Source: Anaerolineae bacterium
Lineage (GTDB): Bacteria > Chloroflexota > Anaerolineae > Anaerolineales > Anaerolineaceae
Direction: 5' to 3'
Length of the DNA stretch: 64,000 nucleotides
Assembly: GCA_013314735.1 (NCBI GenBank)
Contig: JABUFD010000001.1
Location: forward strand, 992,001-1,056,000
Part shown: positions 9,717-17,528 of the stretch, one piece after another
Layout of the letters: each line of letters begins with the position of its first letter
How positions within the stretch are numbered: position 1 is the stretch's first letter
Notes under the pieces: model-generated
Databases searched by the model: none
What the model was told of the DNA's origin: nothing
The model's input: the letters and a program-made list of their open reading frames with translations, nothing else
Made by a program: the position numbers and the translations under genes

Positions 9717-10900
9717 CCCGGCACTCCTATGCAGATATGAAAGCCATTTCCTGGCTCTGTCCTTATTTCGCAGTGGCCTTTTAACAAATTGACACGTTCT
9801 CCCAACCCTATGAGACCGAATCCATCACCTGGATTGGATGCACCCTGGCCATCATCATCAATGCACAAAGTAATCCAACTCATCTCTGTGAAATCTAATT
9901 TGATCGTCAAGTTTGATGCTTTTGAATACTTATTCGAATTATTGATACCTTCCTGGACAGCCCGGTAAAGCGTCCAGTTTGTTTGCGGACTTAATTGTTT
10001 TTCCTCACCAACGAGTTCAAAAATTACTGTCATCTCACCAAATTCGGTGTGGTCCAGCAGTCGTTGAATGGCTGCGGATAACGGTATATTTTCGAGGATT
10101 GGAGATCGCAATGTGGAAACACTGTGCCGTACATCTTTCAACGCATCTTGAGCTAGATTTTGGGCTTTCTGCAGTGCATCTTCGGCCTTTTCTGGTTTTT
10201 TTAACAAGACCATGCGTGCGGCTTGAACCTGCATGTAGATTGAAGTAAGGTAATGTCCCAATCCGTCATGGATTTCCCGGGCCATCCGGTTTCTTTCCTG
10301 TGTGATTGCCAACTCCTCAACCTGCAATGCGTAATTGCGTAGATGAGCATTCGCATCTTCCAATTCTGCGATCAATCGGTTGATTTCAACGCGTGAATGT
10401 TCTTCGTTTACTGCCATTTGCGTGAAAAAAACAATAAATATTTGGGCTACAAAAAATAATGGCAGCGAATTAAAAAACGTATTAAGGCCATTGGGTTGTT
10501 TTAATAAAACGAGAATAATCTCTCCCAGAATGATGCTGTTTACCAAAACCAGGCCAATTCGGGGTAGAAGAACCACGCTTTGAACCACAAGCGGTAAAAG
10601 AAGCAACGCGTTCAAACTCAAGTTGCTCATTGTGCTGGAACCAATCATTAAGATTGAACCGCTGAGGATCAGTTGAACAAAAAAGTAACCCGCCCTCATC
10701 ACAAGCGCATCAGATTCCAGTATATAGCGGTAACCATAAATCCCGACCATCAGATAGGCAATTCCCAAAAGAATCATCGAGATCAGTTTGGTAATAGAAA
10801 GATTTTGGGCAGCACTAAATATTGCAAAATAAGCAGCCAATACCACCAGCAGAAAGGCGATATCGGCACCATTGCCCAATTGAATTCTAGTTTTATTCAT
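9713..10900 (-). CDS. Sensor histidine kinase (HisKA_3 / DesK-NarX type)
   Basis: A 395-residue kinase. The N-terminal part has about six membrane helices (residues 15-165). A coiled coil with EINRLIAELEDANAHLRNY leads into the HisKA_3 dimerisation domain, whose phospho-acceptor histidine is in MAREIHDGLGHYLTSI (about residue 213). The HATPase_c domain follows, with the N box (EGINNSNKYS), the G1 region DDDGQG and GFGLIGLGERV. No separate periplasmic sensor domain is seen, so it probably senses something in or near the membrane, as DesK does. It is co-transcribed with the response regulator. A TATAAT box lies only 6 bases before the ATG, so the mRNA may be leaderless. Confidence 0.93.
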   Translation of the reverse strand: MNKTRIQLGNGADIAFLLVVLAAYFAIFSAAQNLSITKLISMILLGIAYLMVGIYGYRYILESDALVMRAGYFFVQLILSGSILMIGSSTMSNLSLNALLLLPLVVQSVVLLPRIGLVLVNSIILGEIILVLLKQPNGLNTFFNSLPLFFVAQIFIVFFTQMAVNEEHSRVEINRLIAELEDANAHLRNYALQVEELAITQERNRMAREIHDGLGHYLTSIYMQVQAARMVLLKKPEKAEDALQKAQNLAQDALKDVRHSVSTLRSPILENIPLSAAIQRLLDHTEFGEMTVIFELVGEEKQLSPQTNWTLYRAVQEGINNSNKYSKASNLTIKLDFTEMSWITLCIDDDGQGASNPGDGFGLIGLGERVNLLKGHCEIRTEPGNGFHICIGVPG

Positions 10901-11004: not shown

Positions 11005-11247
11005 TTATTGCCGCGATTCGATCAACGCAGCTAATTGTTCCAGCGTATCAAATGTATCCGAATTTAGTTCTGAGTCGTCAATGAGAACGCCGAACTCATT
11101 TTCAATCATGATAGAGAGATCGACAAGACTGAATGAATCTATCAGTCCACTTCGTATGATTGACTCACCTGGTGTGATATCTCTGCCTGGTTGCTCCAAA
11201 ATGTCTTCACAAATTTTATTCGTTAATCGCTCTAATACTGATGCCAT
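11005..11247 (-). CDS. Acyl carrier protein, DltC-like
   Basis: An 80-residue carrier protein. The phosphopantetheine attachment site is Ser38 in SGLIDSFSLVDL. The G-L-I/L-D-S-F form of this motif is the one found in DltC, the D-alanyl carrier protein, rather than the ADSL form of fatty-acid ACP. Helix III, with IENEFGVLI, also resembles DltC. The protein would be loaded on the cytoplasmic side and deliver its acyl group to the MBOAT membrane acyltransferase encoded in the same operon. It is the last gene, 15 bases after the SGNH-propeller gene. Neither a DltA-type adenylating enzyme nor a phosphopantetheinyl transferase is in the window, so the acyl group is unknown. Confidence 0.9.
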   Translation of the reverse strand: MASVLERLTNKICEDILEQPGRDITPGESIIRSGLIDSFSLVDLSIMIENEFGVLIDDSELNSDTFDTLEQLAALIESRQ

Positions 11248-11262
11248 AAGGTTCTCCTATTT

Positions 11263-13362
11263 TTACTCTTTCCAAATTAGTGTTGCAATTGTCATAATCG
11301 ATTCCGCAGTAATAGTTATTGAATCCTCCAAAGGAACAACCAAACCTGTTTCCACTTCGGTTAAGCGAATGCCAATTCCATACTCACCTAGCGAATTGAT
11401 AAAGGTACCTCCGGTAATAATGTGAGCGCCATCGGGAGACCATGTGAGAGAGGGGCTCAGGTAATCGGCTGGTTGGTATTCATCAACCAATCCTGTCCGA
11501 ACATCAATGCGGTAGTGCAGAATTTCATTCGCTTTTCCATAATAATCGCTCCTGACCATTTTTAAAACCACAATGGATGTGCCTTCTGGGTTCCAAGCGT
11601 AATCTAGAAGCACGTTGCCATAAAGACTTACAAACTCCGGAGCGGTCACCCCCAGGGTTAGGTAGTAGATGGTCTCAATATCATCCTGGCTCAGATAGTA
11701 TAAGTAATTGGTACCGCTGATATCTACCTTTGGGTCTCCTCCGGTGATGATGACTGTAGTATCTGCTGATAAGATGTTCGTCCGGAATAAAGTCGCATCG
11801 GTACACAATTCGGAAACGCAATCAGTATAATCTGTCCAGTACACAAATCCATTAGAAATACTGACAACCTGCACGTCTGACGAGTCTGTTGCCACTAATA
11901 ATGATTTCATATTGGCATTGACCAAATATATCCCTGGTTTTTCATCCACTATTCCTGCAGCAACAATCTGTTTTGTATCAATAAAAAGGGCACTGTCTGA
12001 AGTCATACCAAGGTCGATCTGTTGTTGTCTTTCAGGACACACCGAATCTATGCACAAGATCGACAAATCTTTAGTGTCTTCGTTTTGCACGAGGATGAAA
12101 CCATCCATACTATCGAGTAAACGATGCCCATTACCCATCAGTTTCACAACCGAACCTTGTGCAGGTGAGATGGCATAAATACCTGCAGCATACCGGTGAT
12201 TGCCTTGCAGAGTTTGCTCTAGCTGCAAGAAAATTGTGCCTTCCAGGTTGGGCATCGGGTTGAACGATTGGGAAAAATCTTTTTCTGGAGCATTAATTTC
12301 TTCATCGATATCTGGAGCATTGTCCGGTTCATAAACTGTGTTATCTGAAATCTCTGCATTTGCAGACCGTAAAAGCGAATCCAAAGTTTTTAGTGCTGTA
12401 TAGCTTCTCTCGTTCCATGCGTCAACCGTAATATGGAAACCATCACGTTCCGGATCAATACCCTGGTATGGAAGTGCCTGGGCAGCAAGCCAGAAATTCC
12501 ATAAAGGAATATCGTACTCATACGCCAAACGGGCTGTGGCCAAATTGATGGAATGATCTCCTTCTACATTGTCTGCTTTCGTTGAAAGGATGGGGAGCAC
12601 GCCCTGGCTTATCGCGTACTCAACAATGTTTCGCATATATTGCTCATACCTTTCCGGTGTGCGGCCATCCCACCAGACCTCCAGGCTGATGATGATCATG
12701 CTGGGATTATGTACCCGTATCTCACATGCCAGTGGATTCTCGCCCGGCTCACAAACCTCCGGGTCCGCCCTAAATGGTGATAATACAGCGGCTGCATTAA
12801 AACCGCCTTTGACTGCATACCCATCTCGGTTAAAAGAGCCGGCAAAATGATCGACTGTTTCCAACAAAAGAGCATCCTCTCCGGCCAGGATATAGCGCCC
12901 AGGTAGATCATAAATGCCCAAAAGCACTTCGCGAATGCTCTGACAGTCACCGACTTTGGAAAATGAATGCGGATCACGTCCTGACGCGAGGCCGGATTGA
13001 TAAATTTGCATTGCCCTTCCTGAAAGCGTCGGAACAACTGGCCAAGTCATCCATTCACTCGGGTCCAAACGAATATCAGGCGTAGGTGTAGTCGTGACAG
13101 ATGGTTGGTCTACAGGAGTTTCTGGATCGGGGGTATTGTTGACCTGGTCTGTGCCCGGACTGGTTGTCTCATGTGGAGTGAGAGTCGACTCTCTTGTTAT
13201 TACTGGTAACATCTCAGATTCTTCACTGCTGTTTGCCGATTCACTGGTGGTTGCTTGGCAACTACTCAGGAAAACCCAACCCAGTAATAGAAAAGAAACA
13301 AGAATGCATACTCCAACATGATGTTGTGGAATCGAAATCAGTAAATATTTTGGTCTATTCAT
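11263..13362 (-). CDS. Lipoprotein with SGNH hydrolase-like domain and C-terminal beta-propeller
   Basis: A 699-residue exported protein. A signal peptide ends in a lipobox, LSSC, with Cys35. A Thr/Pro/Ser-rich linker runs to about residue 100. The SGNH-like domain (about 105-335) has block I VGDCQS and a C-terminal D-x-x-H motif in ERDGFH, so the serine and the Asp/His pair are all present. Residues 370-699 form repeated beta-strand units of PD40/TolB type, for example LTWSPDGAHI. It is paralogous to the next gene upstream in the operon (13382-14383), which lacks the propeller. A likely role is acyl transfer to or from an envelope polymer outside the membrane, with the propeller as a binding module; that is inference. 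Confidence 0.82.
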   Translation of the reverse strand: MNRPKYLLISIPQHHVGVCILVSFLLLGWVFLSSCQATTSESANSSEESEMLPVITRESTLTPHETTSPGTDQVNNTPDPETPVDQPSVTTTPTPDIRLDPSEWMTWPVVPTLSGRAMQIYQSGLASGRDPHSFSKVGDCQSIREVLLGIYDLPGRYILAGEDALLLETVDHFAGSFNRDGYAVKGGFNAAAVLSPFRADPEVCEPGENPLACEIRVHNPSMIIISLEVWWDGRTPERYEQYMRNIVEYAISQGVLPILSTKADNVEGDHSINLATARLAYEYDIPLWNFWLAAQALPYQGIDPERDGFHITVDAWNERSYTALKTLDSLLRSANAEISDNTVYEPDNAPDIDEEINAPEKDFSQSFNPMPNLEGTIFLQLEQTLQGNHRYAAGIYAISPAQGSVVKLMGNGHRLLDSMDGFILVQNEDTKDLSILCIDSVCPERQQQIDLGMTSDSALFIDTKQIVAAGIVDEKPGIYLVNANMKSLLVATDSSDVQVVSISNGFVYWTDYTDCVSELCTDATLFRTNILSADTTVIITGGDPKVDISGTNYLYYLSQDDIETIYYLTLGVTAPEFVSLYGNVLLDYAWNPEGTSIVVLKMVRSDYYGKANEILHYRIDVRTGLVDEYQPADYLSPSLTWSPDGAHIITGGTFINSLGEYGIGIRLTEVETGLVVPLEDSITITAESIMTIATLIWKE

Positions 13363-13381: not shown

Positions 13382-14383
13382 CTACTGCTCAGGATTCAAC
13401 GTACGCCATACGGAATCTAACGCCTGCAAACTGGTCAACCTATGAATCATGATTCCTTGTTCACTGAGGTATGTATCATCGTTGGGGAGCATACCCTTGT
13501 TTTCGACATCCTGAACCGCAGCCCAGAAATTGAGAACAGGGACTTGATATTCATACGCGACTTTAACCAATTGTTCATTAATGACTGCGTCACCTTCTCT
13601 GGAATCTGCTTTGGTGGAAATAATGGGTACAATGCCCAGGGTGAGGAGTTCCTCAACGATTTTTCGTAAATACATCTCATTGCGCACTTCCCAATGGGTT
13701 CCAAGATTGATAAAGACGATACTTGGATTATGTTGCCGTATTTCACATTCCAACGGGGTTTCGCCAAAAAGGCAACCGCTACGGTCATCGTCGATCCATC
13801 CTTCCCACAAAATAGCTGCCACCGTGGTTCCATTCTTCACAGTTACGGATTCTCGTGAAAAAGATCCCTTAAAATGCTCAATTGTTCGTAAAAGCTCAGG
13901 CTGGTTAGCAGCTTCAATGGGGTCGTCTTCATAAATACCCATATAAACGTCAGGTAAGCTTTGGCAGTCACCGAACACCGAAAAAGCATACGCATTCCTG
14001 CCTTGTCGGATACCTTCCTGATAAATTTCTACCATGCGTGGTGAAATTTCCGGCAGGACCGGCCAGCTCTCCCAATCTTCGGGGACGGGAGGGGAATAGA
14101 GGCTAATGGATTCCTGTGTTCTGTCCGGCGGCAATGCCGTCTTCTCATATGTTGAAGGTGATTCTTGTGTCTTTTCGGTATCGGTCCCGACAACAGTAGG
14201 TATGGTCAGCGTTGATGCGGATTCAGCCAATGTGGTGGTTTCCGTGGGATACTGTTGAGGTTTTGTTGGTATCATAGTATTCGTTTCAATAAAATCCTCG
14301 CCCACAGGCATATGTACCACACCGGTGCAGGATGTCAGGAAAACAAATGGAATCAATATTGTCAAACAAAATAACAATTTCAT
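13382..14383 (-). CDS. SGNH-like lipoprotein with altered catalytic triad
   Basis: A 333-residue lipoprotein with the lipobox LTSC at Cys19, then a Thr/Pro-rich spacer to about residue 105, then an SGNH-like domain homologous to that of the neighbouring 699-residue protein. The nucleophile block is conserved (VFGDCQS against VGDCQS), as is the STKADSREGD/STKADNVEGD block. Where the neighbour has RDGFH, this protein reads DDTYL, so the catalytic histidine is replaced by leucine. It may be a non-catalytic partner or acyl-binding subunit. The ATG overlaps the stop of the preceding SGNH gene (ATGA), so translation is coupled. Confidence 0.82.
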   Translation of the reverse strand: MKLLFCLTILIPFVFLTSCTGVVHMPVGEDFIETNTMIPTKPQQYPTETTTLAESASTLTIPTVVGTDTEKTQESPSTYEKTALPPDRTQESISLYSPPVPEDWESWPVLPEISPRMVEIYQEGIRQGRNAYAFSVFGDCQSLPDVYMGIYEDDPIEAANQPELLRTIEHFKGSFSRESVTVKNGTTVAAILWEGWIDDDRSGCLFGETPLECEIRQHNPSIVFINLGTHWEVRNEMYLRKIVEELLTLGIVPIISTKADSREGDAVINEQLVKVAYEYQVPVLNFWAAVQDVENKGMLPNDDTYLSEQGIMIHRLTSLQALDSVWRTLNPEQ

Positions 14384-15543
14384 TGGACTGCCGTCAATTG
14401 GTATTCTTCCAATATCCTTGTTATAGCCTTTGCAAGGATATCTTCTCCCTCAGGATTCAAGTGAATAGCGCTGTTTGTAAAAAATTGTTCCGGGATGATA
14501 TCCCAGAGGTCATGATAATCTACCCCTCTGGCTTGTGCATACTGGTTCATTAAAGATCGATAAGTATCATAGGCCCATTTTGGATAATAAAAGTTGTATC
14601 GAAGATCGCTATTTTCGCCTGAACTGATCATGATTGGTTCATTGATGATAATTACACTGGTAGAGGCCTCTTCCGTGGCAATCGTTTTCCCAACATTAAA
14701 CACCTCAAACGCAAGAACATCAGAGGTCAATGTTTCCTGTGTCAGTCCATAATACGATATATCGTTTTCCAGGTTACGTTGCGCAGGTGTATAAGCATCT
14801 GGTATGTATTGGTCTACACCTGTAGCTGCCCACATTACACCGTATAGTTGAAGCCGAATCAGGTCGGCAAGTTCCCTTCTACGGCCAAATATTGTTTTAT
14901 CCCAAAAAGTCTCTCTTTTTAACAATGAGGACCTGAGATCATATGGTAGGTTGTACGAAGTGGACATATCTTGAATGAATTCTGGATTATTTTGCACGAT
15001 GGGAGAGGTTAATTGCCGTTCCCATGGCATGGCTTCCAGTGTTACCATCCATAGTATCAGGTCGGGTTGATAATCGCGAACGGCCTGATCCATAATCATT
15101 AAATCTTTAGTGAGTGAAATGGTGGGGTATCCAAGATTGTAAAATCGTACCGGTTTTTTACTTACTTCATCAATGAGTCCCATTCTATTCAGGGATCCTG
15201 TCAGTGTTTGTTCATTGGTCAATAGTGTTCCCCACACCGACGAATCACCAATAACAAGGACAACAAACTCCTCTTTTGTGTCATTCGAATCAATTTTGTG
15301 AGATTTCAACATCGCATCGACATTGTACATGCTGAAATTGTAGGCCAGGTGCGGCGTTTCGCCGAATGGTAAACGTTCCCGACCATGCCAGAGACGACCA
15401 TACAGTGAAAAATGCCCTAGATCGGGATTGATCATCGCAAAAAATACATTTCCCAAAACCAAAATGAGAGCCGTGAACACGATGACACGGACAATTGATT
15501 TCCAGGTTGCAATGGGATTTGGCGAGAATGTGGATTGATCCAT
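14380..15543 (-). CDS. Membrane-anchored SGNH hydrolase-like protein (DltD/AlgJ-like role)
   Basis: A 387-residue protein with one N-terminal membrane helix (about residues 18-38) and an extracytoplasmic SGNH domain. Block I is VLVIGDSSVWG, with the presumed nucleophilic serine. A second block is YNLGYPTISL. Near the C-terminus is TNSAIHLNPEGEDILA, containing the catalytic histidine, but the usual Asp three residues before it is Ser. It follows the MBOAT gene by 4 bases, exactly as DltD-, AlgJ/X- or PatB-type proteins follow their MBOAT partners. The expected role is to receive the acyl group exported through the MBOAT protein and place it on a cell-envelope polymer. Confidence 0.82.
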   Translation of the reverse strand: MDQSTFSPNPIATWKSIVRVIVFTALILVLGNVFFAMINPDLGHFSLYGRLWHGRERLPFGETPHLAYNFSMYNVDAMLKSHKIDSNDTKEEFVVLVIGDSSVWGTLLTNEQTLTGSLNRMGLIDEVSKKPVRFYNLGYPTISLTKDLMIMDQAVRDYQPDLILWMVTLEAMPWERQLTSPIVQNNPEFIQDMSTSYNLPYDLRSSLLKRETFWDKTIFGRRRELADLIRLQLYGVMWAATGVDQYIPDAYTPAQRNLENDISYYGLTQETLTSDVLAFEVFNVGKTIATEEASTSVIIINEPIMISSGENSDLRYNFYYPKWAYDTYRSLMNQYAQARGVDYHDLWDIIPEQFFTNSAIHLNPEGEDILAKAITRILEEYQLTAVQ

Positions 15544-15547
15544 GGAT

Positions 15548-16975
15548 TTATATTATTCCAAAAAGGACACCAAGCGCTTTGAATGCCTGACGAGGCTCGG
15601 GTAGGATGAAAAAGAGCCAGCCAACAGCAACAAAGTGGAAAGTGAGTATACCACCTGCCAGTCTGTTCAGATGGAAGAGGAATGGTTTCTTTGCATCCAT
15701 CATTTTACTATCTAGCAATTCTGACCAACGATTCTGCAAAAATAAACCTGCGCCATGCCATATCCCCCATATGATGAAATTAGTGGTGGCGCCATGCCAA
15801 AGACCGATCAGGATCATAGTCGATAGCTGCATCAATAAAACCATGGCCCAAACGGGAAAGTTTTTCGCGTTTTTTCTGATGTGTCTACTGACCGGGTTAA
15901 AGAAATATGTCCTGAACCACTGGGTCAGTGTTATGTGCCAGTTGTCCCAGAACAATTTTAAATTGTGCTTTAAGTAGGGTGTTCTGAAATTTTCCGGGAG
16001 GTCAATTCCGATGATACAAGATATACCAATGGCAATATCAGTATATCCACTGAAATCAAAAAGGATTTGAAAGGCATATGCATAAAGCATCACCCATAAC
16101 CACCCTGGTTGACTTACCTGAGACACATTGGTCACTGACACCGAAATTAAAGACAAGGTGTCAGCCAGGGCATATTTTTTAAACATACCAATTAAAATCC
16201 GCCTTATTCCCGTGTATAGGTCTTCATTAAGTTTCCTGGGCGTTTGGTTTCTGAGATCACCAAGGAACCGTTGCATTCTGTCAATTGGTCCAGCGCTAAT
16301 GGCGGGATAATAAAACATGTATATGAAAAATTCCTGAAGGTTCACATCCTTTAAGCGCTTGTTTCTTGCATCTACTATGACATGAACCATGCGAAAAACG
16401 ATATATGAAAAACCCAACCAGCGCAGGTCTAACCCACTTGCTCTCAATGTAGTTTGTCCAGCCATTCCTCGCAGAAAAACGCTGGTTTGCAGGCCGAAAA
16501 ATGGTGATTTCTGGATGAGTAGCAACAACAATAAAAAAAGAAGCAACGCACTGAATGTTGCCGGTTTTCCCTGCATTCGGCCACGAAAATAGAACGCCAG
16601 AAAGATAGACACCGCGAATGGCGCTAGAATCATGTATACAGCCGGTGGGCGTGAAGGTGTAATAATCCCGACCATGCTGAAATAACGGGTACTCCCGAGC
16701 ATGATGACGACCAGTGTAATGCACACTGCTGTAGATATGTTGATTGGTGTTAATTGATGTTCTACCGGAGTAATGGAAAGCCACACAAAAAAACCAATCA
16801 ACAGAACCAATAAGGGAAGAAAAAAATCCAAATAACGAATTGGCAGACCAGGCTGCAACCAAAATAGCACTAGTATGCATGACGCCAACAAGAGCCAGCG
16901 TTTTATCGACAAGCTCGGTGCCAGGCGGATGAGAAAGGCAACGCCAATGATGATAAACAATGTATCAAGTTGCAT
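15548..16975 (-). CDS. MBOAT-family membrane acyltransferase (DltB/AlgI-like)
   Basis: A 475-residue multi-pass membrane enzyme with the full bacterial MBOAT signature. It has FYYPAISAGPIDR, then FDFSGYTDIAIGIS with FRTPYLKHNLKLFWDNWHI, a WFRTYFFNPV block, and the invariant catalytic histidine (about His394) in IGLWHGATTN. About eleven helices are expected. The family moves acyl groups from cytoplasmic donors (a thioester carrier or acyl-CoA) to extracytoplasmic acceptors. The donor here is probably the DltC-like carrier in the same operon. The ATG at 16975 directly abuts the stop of the 41-residue microprotein gene, and AGGG a few bases upstream gives a ribosome site. Confidence 0.93.
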   Translation of the reverse strand: MQLDTLFIIIGVAFLIRLAPSLSIKRWLLLASCILVLFWLQPGLPIRYLDFFLPLLVLLIGFFVWLSITPVEHQLTPINISTAVCITLVVIMLGSTRYFSMVGIITPSRPPAVYMILAPFAVSIFLAFYFRGRMQGKPATFSALLLFLLLLLLIQKSPFFGLQTSVFLRGMAGQTTLRASGLDLRWLGFSYIVFRMVHVIVDARNKRLKDVNLQEFFIYMFYYPAISAGPIDRMQRFLGDLRNQTPRKLNEDLYTGIRRILIGMFKKYALADTLSLISVSVTNVSQVSQPGWLWVMLYAYAFQILFDFSGYTDIAIGISCIIGIDLPENFRTPYLKHNLKLFWDNWHITLTQWFRTYFFNPVSRHIRKNAKNFPVWAMVLLMQLSTMILIGLWHGATTNFIIWGIWHGAGLFLQNRWSELLDSKMMDAKKPFLFHLNRLAGGILTFHFVAVGWLFFILPEPRQAFKALGVLFGII

Positions 16976-17101
16976 CTAAAAGCCCTGGTAGATCCACTGT
17001 GGAGAAGCATCCGCGGTCAATATGACCAGTAGTATGATGATCAGAGATAACAACAAGGCAATACTGAAATCTCTAAAAACATGTCTGGTCTGATTATTCA
17101 T
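16976..17101 (-). CDS. 41-residue single-helix microprotein, DltX-like
   Basis: A short gene that fits exactly between its neighbours. Its ATG overlaps the stop of the lipoprotein gene (ATGA at 17098-17101) and its TAG is immediately followed by the MBOAT ATG. The product starts MNNQTRHVFRDF (basic), has one hydrophobic helix (about residues 13-34), and ends ASPQWIYQGF. In the Dlt pathway DltX is a membrane microprotein of about 50 residues encoded next to DltB, with a conserved C-terminal FIYNxF motif; WIYQGF keeps the I-Y and the final F. The basic N-terminus predicts a cytoplasmic N-terminus and an extracellular C-terminus, as for DltX. One caveat is that the codons for YQG also supply the AGGG ribosome site of the MBOAT gene. 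Confidence 0.72.
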   Translation of the reverse strand: MNNQTRHVFRDFSIALLLSLIIILLVILTADASPQWIYQGF

Positions 17102-17487
17102 TGTCCCTGGTAGCCACAAACCTGGCGTTCACCCGCGTTCTCAACAACAATAAATGTTCGATTGCTTAAGTCAAGCGACTGCTGTTCATCATTATAGGTG
17201 GCTAGAATGCTGCCAGTGCACTTCACAAAGGATGTGGAATCTTCCTCGCTGGAAGTTGAGCAACTCACGTTTTCCAACGCAGGAGAAACTGCCAGAAACG
17301 AATCCATTTCGAGCATCGCGTCGAAAATAAAATCCTCGCAAACCAGATTGGTCAATGATGCCTCATCCTGGGCAACAACGGCATTCAAATAACTCTCTAC
17401 TGTTTTCGCGGAAGGATCATCGATCGCACACGCGGTGGTAATTAGTGCAAACAGTGATACTAGTAATAACAATCTTACTAAACGCAT
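17098..17487 (-). CDS. Small secreted lipoprotein, first gene of the acylation operon
   Basis: A 129-residue protein with a signal peptide ending in TTAC, lipobox Cys20. The mature part (AKTVESYLNAVVAQDEASL and several Cys residues) resembles small NTF2-like or DUF4878-type lipoprotein domains, but I cannot assign a family firmly. I chose the ATG at 17487 because AGGAG lies 5 bases upstream; the longer frame from 17505 starts in front of that site. It overlaps the microprotein gene by 4 bases. Its co-transcription with MBOAT and SGNH genes suggests an envelope role. Confidence 0.75.
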   Translation of the reverse strand: MRLVRLLLLVSLFALITTACAIDDPSAKTVESYLNAVVAQDEASLTNLVCEDFIFDAMLEMDSFLAVSPALENVSCSTSSEEDSTSFVKCTGSILATYNDEQQSLDLSNRTFIVVENAGERQVCGYQGQ

Positions 17488-17528
17488 TTCAGCTCCTGTT
17501 GTCATTGTGGATATATCAGAATCGTTTC

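Follow-up and report, generated by a model that had tools for sequence, protein, structure and literature searches.

Within the 64,000-nucleotide stretch of Anaerolineae DNA that we analysed, hereafter called the window, the minus strand carries a short frame encoding a 41-residue microprotein, followed by genes of an apparent acylation operon (Table 1). Translated from the minus strand, the frame runs from an ATG start through MNNQTRHVFRDFSIALLLSLIIILLVILTADASPQWIYQGF to a TAG stop, and the plus-strand reading of the same interval contains internal stops. A first-pass annotation had described the frame as fitting tightly between two genes, and this proved accurate, since its start overlaps the upstream lipoprotein gene by four bases (ATGA) and its stop is immediately followed by the ATG (16975) of a gene encoding an MBOAT acyltransferase. 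The YQG tripeptide said to end the previous gene was also found, the lipoprotein gene ending in CGYQGQ and its TACCAGGGA preceding the microprotein ATG. Downstream of the MBOAT gene, on the same strand, lie genes for an SGNH protein, two SGNH-like proteins, and an acyl carrier protein; beyond the carrier protein are a sensor kinase and a response regulator, which by inspection appear unrelated.

Table 1. Features of the microprotein locus, with positions in the window
Feature	Position	Strand	Basis
Small Cys-containing lipoprotein, 135 aa (lipoprotein by inspection)	17098-17505	minus	ATGA overlap with microprotein gene
Microprotein gene, 41 aa, single-pass, probable acyl shuttle, C terminus PQWIYQGF	16976-17101	minus	translation, alignment, hydropathy
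WIYQGF hexapeptide codons; Tyr38 is the predicted acyl acceptor	16979-16996	minus	alignment, codon counts; role by analogy with DltX and PatA (PMC12148441, partial text)
MBOAT acyltransferase, 475 aa, DltB-like, no fused C-terminal motif, conserved His347 and His394	15548-16975	minus	family searches, alignment, fold
SGNH protein, 387 aa, one N-terminal helix, DltD-like, Ser101 and His361 invariant in 12 aligned	14380-15543	minus	alignment, fold
SGNH-like lipoprotein with GDCQS, Cys at the expected nucleophilic Ser	13382-14383	minus	family search, alignment
Second GDCQS SGNH-like domain (by inspection) and long C-terminal part	11263-13362	minus	no Pfam match
Acyl carrier protein, 80 aa, DSF motif, Ser38 by inspection	11005-11247	minus	family searches; orthologs near MBOAT in relatives

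The microprotein is predicted to cross the membrane once. Residues 12 to 30 form its only hydrophobic stretch (best 19-residue Kyte-Doolittle mean, 3.02), flanked by a net charge of +1 on the N-side and -1 on the C-side, in agreement with the single helix and inside-positive N terminus reported at first reading. Each of the 27 microproteins aligned below has one strongly hydrophobic 19-residue window (means, 2.22 to 3.02), and the N-side is more positive than the C-side in 24 of them, according to a simple prediction that relies on manually assigned start codons in the relatives. Among the 886 start-to-stop frames of at least 25 codons in the window, the microprotein is the only one ending in [FWL]IYxxF, and three end in the looser [FWLYIM]xYxxF. 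No Pfam family matched the window microprotein at E values up to 10, and the sole NCBIfam match was SecDF, with an E value of 0.09 and far under its cut-off.

An unbroken frame and conservation of the terminal I-Y and F had been set in advance as the test of the microprotein. Searching 61 genomes with the MBOAT protein as the query yielded 30 ortholog loci, window included, from which L032, L033, and L034 were left out, their contigs ending at or just before the MBOAT gene; four more ortholog matches (second copy of G014, G057, G017, G047) came without a locus and were covered by the profile search only, and L003, a chance match to the loose tail pattern, was excluded from the counts. In all 27 readable loci (L001 and L006 to L031), the frame is intact before the MBOAT gene, and I, Y, and F are invariant. 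The full set of invariant residues is A15, P34, W36, I37, Y38, G40, and F41; position 39 is Gln in 26 proteins and Ser in one, giving WIYQGF (26) or WIYSGF (1). The codons of this tail vary at all five positions able to do so (Ile, 15/12; Tyr, 15/12; Gly, 12/6/5/4; and Phe, 14/13 over the 27 loci; Gln, mostly CAG, also CAA). Over the last 24 codons, pairwise differences were 0.36, 0.14, and 0.57 at the first, second, and third codon positions, respectively. Judged by its sequence, the frame is thus a conserved gene.

We then looked at how far the microprotein extends and how closely it is linked to the MBOAT. Of 396 genomes sampled from the class Anaerolineae, 103 had a match to a microprotein profile at E ≤ 0.01 and 95 at E ≤ 1e-5, and in a draw of 400 genomes from the phylum, for which the outside-class share is not given, all 34 profile matches fell within the class. 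All 38 profile matches that were read end in WIYQGF, a count that includes three profile seeds and is not fully independent, since the profile contains the tail. These 38 consist of 30 loci of the class-draw profile search and 8 of the 12 loci of a second profile search, some of the 8 being the same places as named MBOAT loci; the other four of the 12 are L221, which also ends in WIYQGF, and three weak matches. The MBOAT gene lies directly behind the microprotein in 33 of the 38, and in three the contig stops 85 to 309 bases after the microprotein. In the other two (L090 and L093), an SGNH-like gene of about 1 kb, matching the SGNH-like family of the operon (E values of 3e-80 and 5e-70), stands between microprotein and MBOAT.

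Co-occurrence across the 61 genomes was close. With thresholds of at least 260 bits for the MBOAT ortholog and E ≤ 0.001 for the microprotein, 33 genomes carry the former, 31 the latter, 30 both, and 27 neither; the discordant cases (MBOAT only in G029, G041, and G059; microprotein only in G033) are all four at contig ends. Nine of the 61 genomes have only other MBOATs, and the microprotein was present in one of these nine (G033). Two MBOATs of the Anaerolineae clade, L096 and L104, have no adjacent microprotein frame. The Anaerolineales genome of L096 holds a second clade MBOAT (L221) paired with a microprotein, which the two MBOATs may share; the profile search of the genome of L104 found no microprotein, the best E value being 0.37. 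The named members of the clade are Chloroflexota, mostly Anaerolineae, and include the cultured Leptolinea tardivitalis YMTK-2 (L100). Upstream of the microprotein, the small lipoprotein gene was present in 14 of the 17 relatives' loci compared, often ending near CGY.

The partner MBOAT resembles DltB. A PDB sequence search with the MBOAT profile (E ≤ 0.001) returned DltB chains only (6bug and 8jem), DltB gave the top matches in a fold search with a microprotein-MBOAT read-through model, and the sole NCBIfam match of the window MBOAT was TIGR04091 (DltB), at 219.7 bits and hence under the family cut-off of 375. This AlphaFold2 model, for which the alignment comprised the 12 of 27 loci where stop and start abut without a gap, had a mean pLDDT of 81.5, with residues 28 to 40 below 50 and the tail unplaced. 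The 25 ortholog MBOATs aligned to that of the window share 38 to 46% identity with it, and His394, singled out in the first-pass annotation, is the histidine of a WHG motif and is invariant in the 26 aligned MBOATs (L014 is present only in the microprotein alignment of 27). His347 and His394 form an invariant pair in these 26 MBOATs with a spacing of 47 residues, the same as that of His289 and His336 in DltB (PMC11035591, partial text).

Clade MBOATs have no tail of the kind seen in typical bacterial MBOATs, where it bears the fused motif. The WHG histidine is followed by 78 to 96 residues in 42 of 42 clade MBOATs, compared to 136 to 190 in 65 fused MBOATs and 63 to 80 in 10 DltB proteins, and the fused motif was found in none of the 42, a set including L096, L104, and the duplicates L100 (= L020) and L101 (= L008). 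The four other MBOATs of the host genome carry the fused motif, ending in TIYGNF, FIYFQF, FLYAQF, and FLYFQF. According to the partial text of PMC12148441, fused MBOATs bear the motif on two extra helices without counterpart in DltB. Scanning contigs with the single MBOAT protein gave no matches, and an alignment query yielded 588 relatives, the best 80 of which were taken as named loci. Fourteen of these fall inside the Anaerolineae clade, none of them fused: 10 have an adjacent microprotein, L097 has masked sequence, L105 meets a contig end, and L096 and L104 are the two without the frame. The 66 loci outside the clade comprise 61 fused MBOATs (ending in xxYxxF), 3 with a separate small frame (L111, L113, and L127), L142, which is cut by a contig end, and L162, which has neither.

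The SGNH partner encoded behind the MBOAT had DltD as its top fold match, although the likeness is modest (TM, 0.39) and general SGNH esterases follow close behind. The usual SGNH motif is DxxH, and this protein has no Asp three residues before the conserved His. It is predicted to take the acyl group and hand it to an envelope target. In the SGNH-like proteins, the Cys-for-Ser replacement of GDCQS was seen in 17 of 18 aligned sequences, L055 having GDSNS; in L090 and L093, the family member that separates the microprotein from the MBOAT has GDS instead. The GDCQS proteins could use Cys as a nucleophile or be inactive paralogs. The longer of the two in the window is the best blastp partner of many operon members of 320 to 350 aa in relatives.

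We next compared clade and fused loci for carrier proteins and ligases. We required at least 6 kb downstream and dropped the duplicates L100, L101, and L105, which left 27 clade loci (a different set from the 27 of the microprotein alignment), 49 fused loci, and 3 others. Of the 27 clade loci, 18 encode a carrier protein on the same strand farther downstream, compared to only 2 of the 49 fused loci (Fisher P = 5e-9, a value that overstates independence because the loci share ancestry). On either strand, the clade count rises to 20, and for the remaining 7 a carrier protein was not detected in the flanking sequence read. Likewise, a FAAL-like ligase is present in 19 of the 27 clade loci and 1 of the 49 fused loci. 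For six ligases of relatives, the best model was fatty acyl-AMP ligase in five and long-chain acyl-CoA ligase in one, all below curated cut-offs, and DltA was absent among the 25 best of the 101 to 107 matching families. In the window, no ligase gene adjoins the operon, and no FAAL-like ligase ortholog was found in the genome, which is 95.5% complete (best match E value of 1.2e-12 over 107 residues); its six AMP-binding genes all lie away from the operon. We predict that the carrier protein is the acyl donor to the MBOAT. In view of the FAAL-like ligase gene that lies next to the carrier protein gene in most relatives, a non-amino carboxylic acid, perhaps a fatty one, is the most likely cargo, and D-alanine is probably not carried. 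The pairing of separate shuttles with carrier proteins and of fused motifs with CoA is strong, not absolute: L114 and L120 are fused and have a carrier protein, and L120, an Acidobacteria contig, combines a fused-motif MBOAT with both a carrier protein and a FAAL-like ligase, an exception to the rule that fused means acyl-CoA.

The notion of an acyl shuttle was reportedly defined in a 2023 paper. To our knowledge, a separate tiny acyl-carrying protein is known so far only as DltX, in the D-alanine pathway of Gram-positive bacteria. The conserved microprotein of Anaerolineae, linked to a tailless MBOAT and to DltB-, DltD-, and carrier-protein-like partners, is very probably the detached acyl-shuttle arm of the DltB-like MBOAT, passing an acyl group to a partner outside. 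On its cytoplasmic side, the MBOAT would be supplied with an acyl thioester by the carrier protein and, via His394, would move the acyl group onto Tyr38 of the microprotein, whose WIYQGF tail is predicted to be extracellular. This tail would then swing to the SGNH partner, where Ser101 would take the acyl group and subsequently pass it to an envelope polymer. We infer the cargo from the ligases of relatives, and the acylation of Tyr38, the direction of transfer, and the target by analogy, an acyl-Tyr in a C-terminal hexapeptide having been described for DltX and PatA (PMC12148441, partial text).

The likeness to DltX (PF12459, Bacillota) is one of architecture. Both are single-pass microproteins of roughly 40 to 50 aa that end in aromatic-x-Tyr-x-x-Phe (16 DltX sequences aligned), beside a DltB-like MBOAT without a motif of its own, a DltD-like SGNH protein, and a carrier protein. 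With DltB-, DltC-, DltD-, and DltX-like parts in the same arrangement, the microprotein might be a true DltX ortholog in an operon that D-alanylates a polymer, and the MBOAT tree (66 of 122 sequences) sets the Anaerolineae clade, a starred group, beside DltB and away from the fused MBOATs, at 94/90, an unstarred node with long branches. Common descent of the split design with DltB is possible. We nevertheless regard DltX orthology and D-alanylation as improbable. The homology to DltX suggested in the first-pass annotation was not detectable: PF12459 matched none of the 27 microproteins at E values up to 10, and over the 61 relatives it gave nothing above its cut-off and no weaker match at any microprotein locus. 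As a positive control, the same model scored above cut-off in 16 of 121 genomes from the class of a Paenibacillus genome, as well as in B. subtilis and L. lactis. An hhalign comparison of the microprotein alignment with 16 DltX sequences gave a probability of 16%, over 15 C-terminal columns only. In HMM cross-scoring, where all scores were tiny, the DltX model averaged 2.7 bits on the microproteins (1.6 without the tail) and the microprotein model 1.4 bits on DltX (1.6 without the tail), compared to -0.6 and -1.1 bits, respectively, for the fully shuffled control. Membership of the DltX family was thus rejected, neither Pfam nor the cross-scores with their tail-removed and shuffled controls nor hhalign placing the microprotein in it.

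Further differences from DltX are that the first position of the strict C-terminal pattern FxYxxF is Trp instead of Phe, only the relaxed aromatic-x-Tyr-x-x-Phe being kept, and that no sequence homology was detected outside the tail. The microprotein gene stands directly before the MBOAT gene in most loci read and belongs to Chloroflexota, and the ligase accompanying the operon in relatives is FAAL-like. We conclude that the microprotein is a protein working, in our reading, like DltX, yet not detectably a member of the DltX family.

A purely structural role was also considered, in which the microprotein joins MBOAT and SGNH protein while its Tyr stays unacylated and the acyl group passes directly. 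DltX does form a single complex in which it binds DltB as well as DltD (PMC12148441, partial text), and the microprotein may have a scaffold function. There is little chance that a purely structural role suffices here, as the Tyr-bearing tail is the most constrained part of the microprotein and the clade MBOATs are devoid of the tail that holds the acyl-Tyr in PatA (same partial text). Finally, it is scarcely credible that the frame is not a protein and that WIYQGF merely combines the MBOAT ribosome site (TACCAGGG) with chance, a caution raised in the first-pass annotation: AGGG lies at ribosome-site distance from the MBOAT start in the window, stop and start abut without a gap in 12 of 27 loci, and the Gln codon is CAG in 23 of 27, but W, I, Y, and F are invariant although a ribosome site does not require them, all four Gly codons are in use, the motif is kept where the nominal MBOAT start is 11 to 31 nt away (6 of 27 loci) and, in L090 and L093, despite the intervening SGNH-like gene, and the codon-position differences show the body of the microprotein to be conserved as protein. 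The ribosome-site explanation was therefore rejected on codon variation and on the distant motifs.

The detached-shuttle reading also invites comparison with fused MBOAT-SGNH systems such as PatA/PatB, which likewise combine an MBOAT and an SGNH protein with a C-terminal hexapeptide, in their case an acyl-Tyr hexapeptide (PMC12148441, partial text). Unlike in PatA/PatB, the motif here is on a separate gene, the MBOAT has no tail, and the likely donor is a carrier protein rather than acyl-CoA. We lean slightly towards the wider view that this is a second microprotein shuttle, fed by a carrier protein and moving a non-amino, perhaps fatty, acyl group to an extracellular polymer in Anaerolineae, and maybe recurrent across phyla. 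Such a shuttle would imply that the detached design is not peculiar to D-alanylation. Separate-shuttle SGNH-MBOAT operons were also seen in single Chisholmbacteria, Peregrinibacteria, and possibly Actinomycetota contigs, so the design may recur across phyla.

In its partial text, the 2025 PatAB paper describes MBOAT/SGNH acylation pathways besides Dlt as being without a DltX-like microprotein or a similar carrier protein (PMC12148441). The class of bacteria studied here has both, together with a different ligase, so that a link between separate shuttles and carrier-protein donors can be tested. Acyl-Tyr transfer could also be dissected in this second system, the microprotein represents a family matched by neither Pfam nor NCBIfam models in our searches, and an envelope polymer of Chloroflexota is predicted to be acylated. 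Among the open-licence papers listed in our literature searches, we found no report tying DltX or MBOAT shuttle microproteins to Chloroflexota.

Among the relatives outside the clade, two contigs encode separate 36-aa shuttle-like proteins beside SGNH and MBOAT genes, one ending in FIYVDF in Candidatus Chisholmbacteria (L113:3547-3657) and one ending in FIYNNF in Candidatus Peregrinibacteria (L127:3887-3997). PF12459 gave no match to either protein, and a carrier protein was not detected in the flanks of these two loci, where the shuttle is nonetheless separate. In an Actinomycetota contig (L111, approximately 9861-10037), a frame encoding a C-terminal QFIYIAF overlaps the last part of an unfused MBOAT gene. 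MBOAT relatives were also present in 32 viral contigs (L243 to L274).
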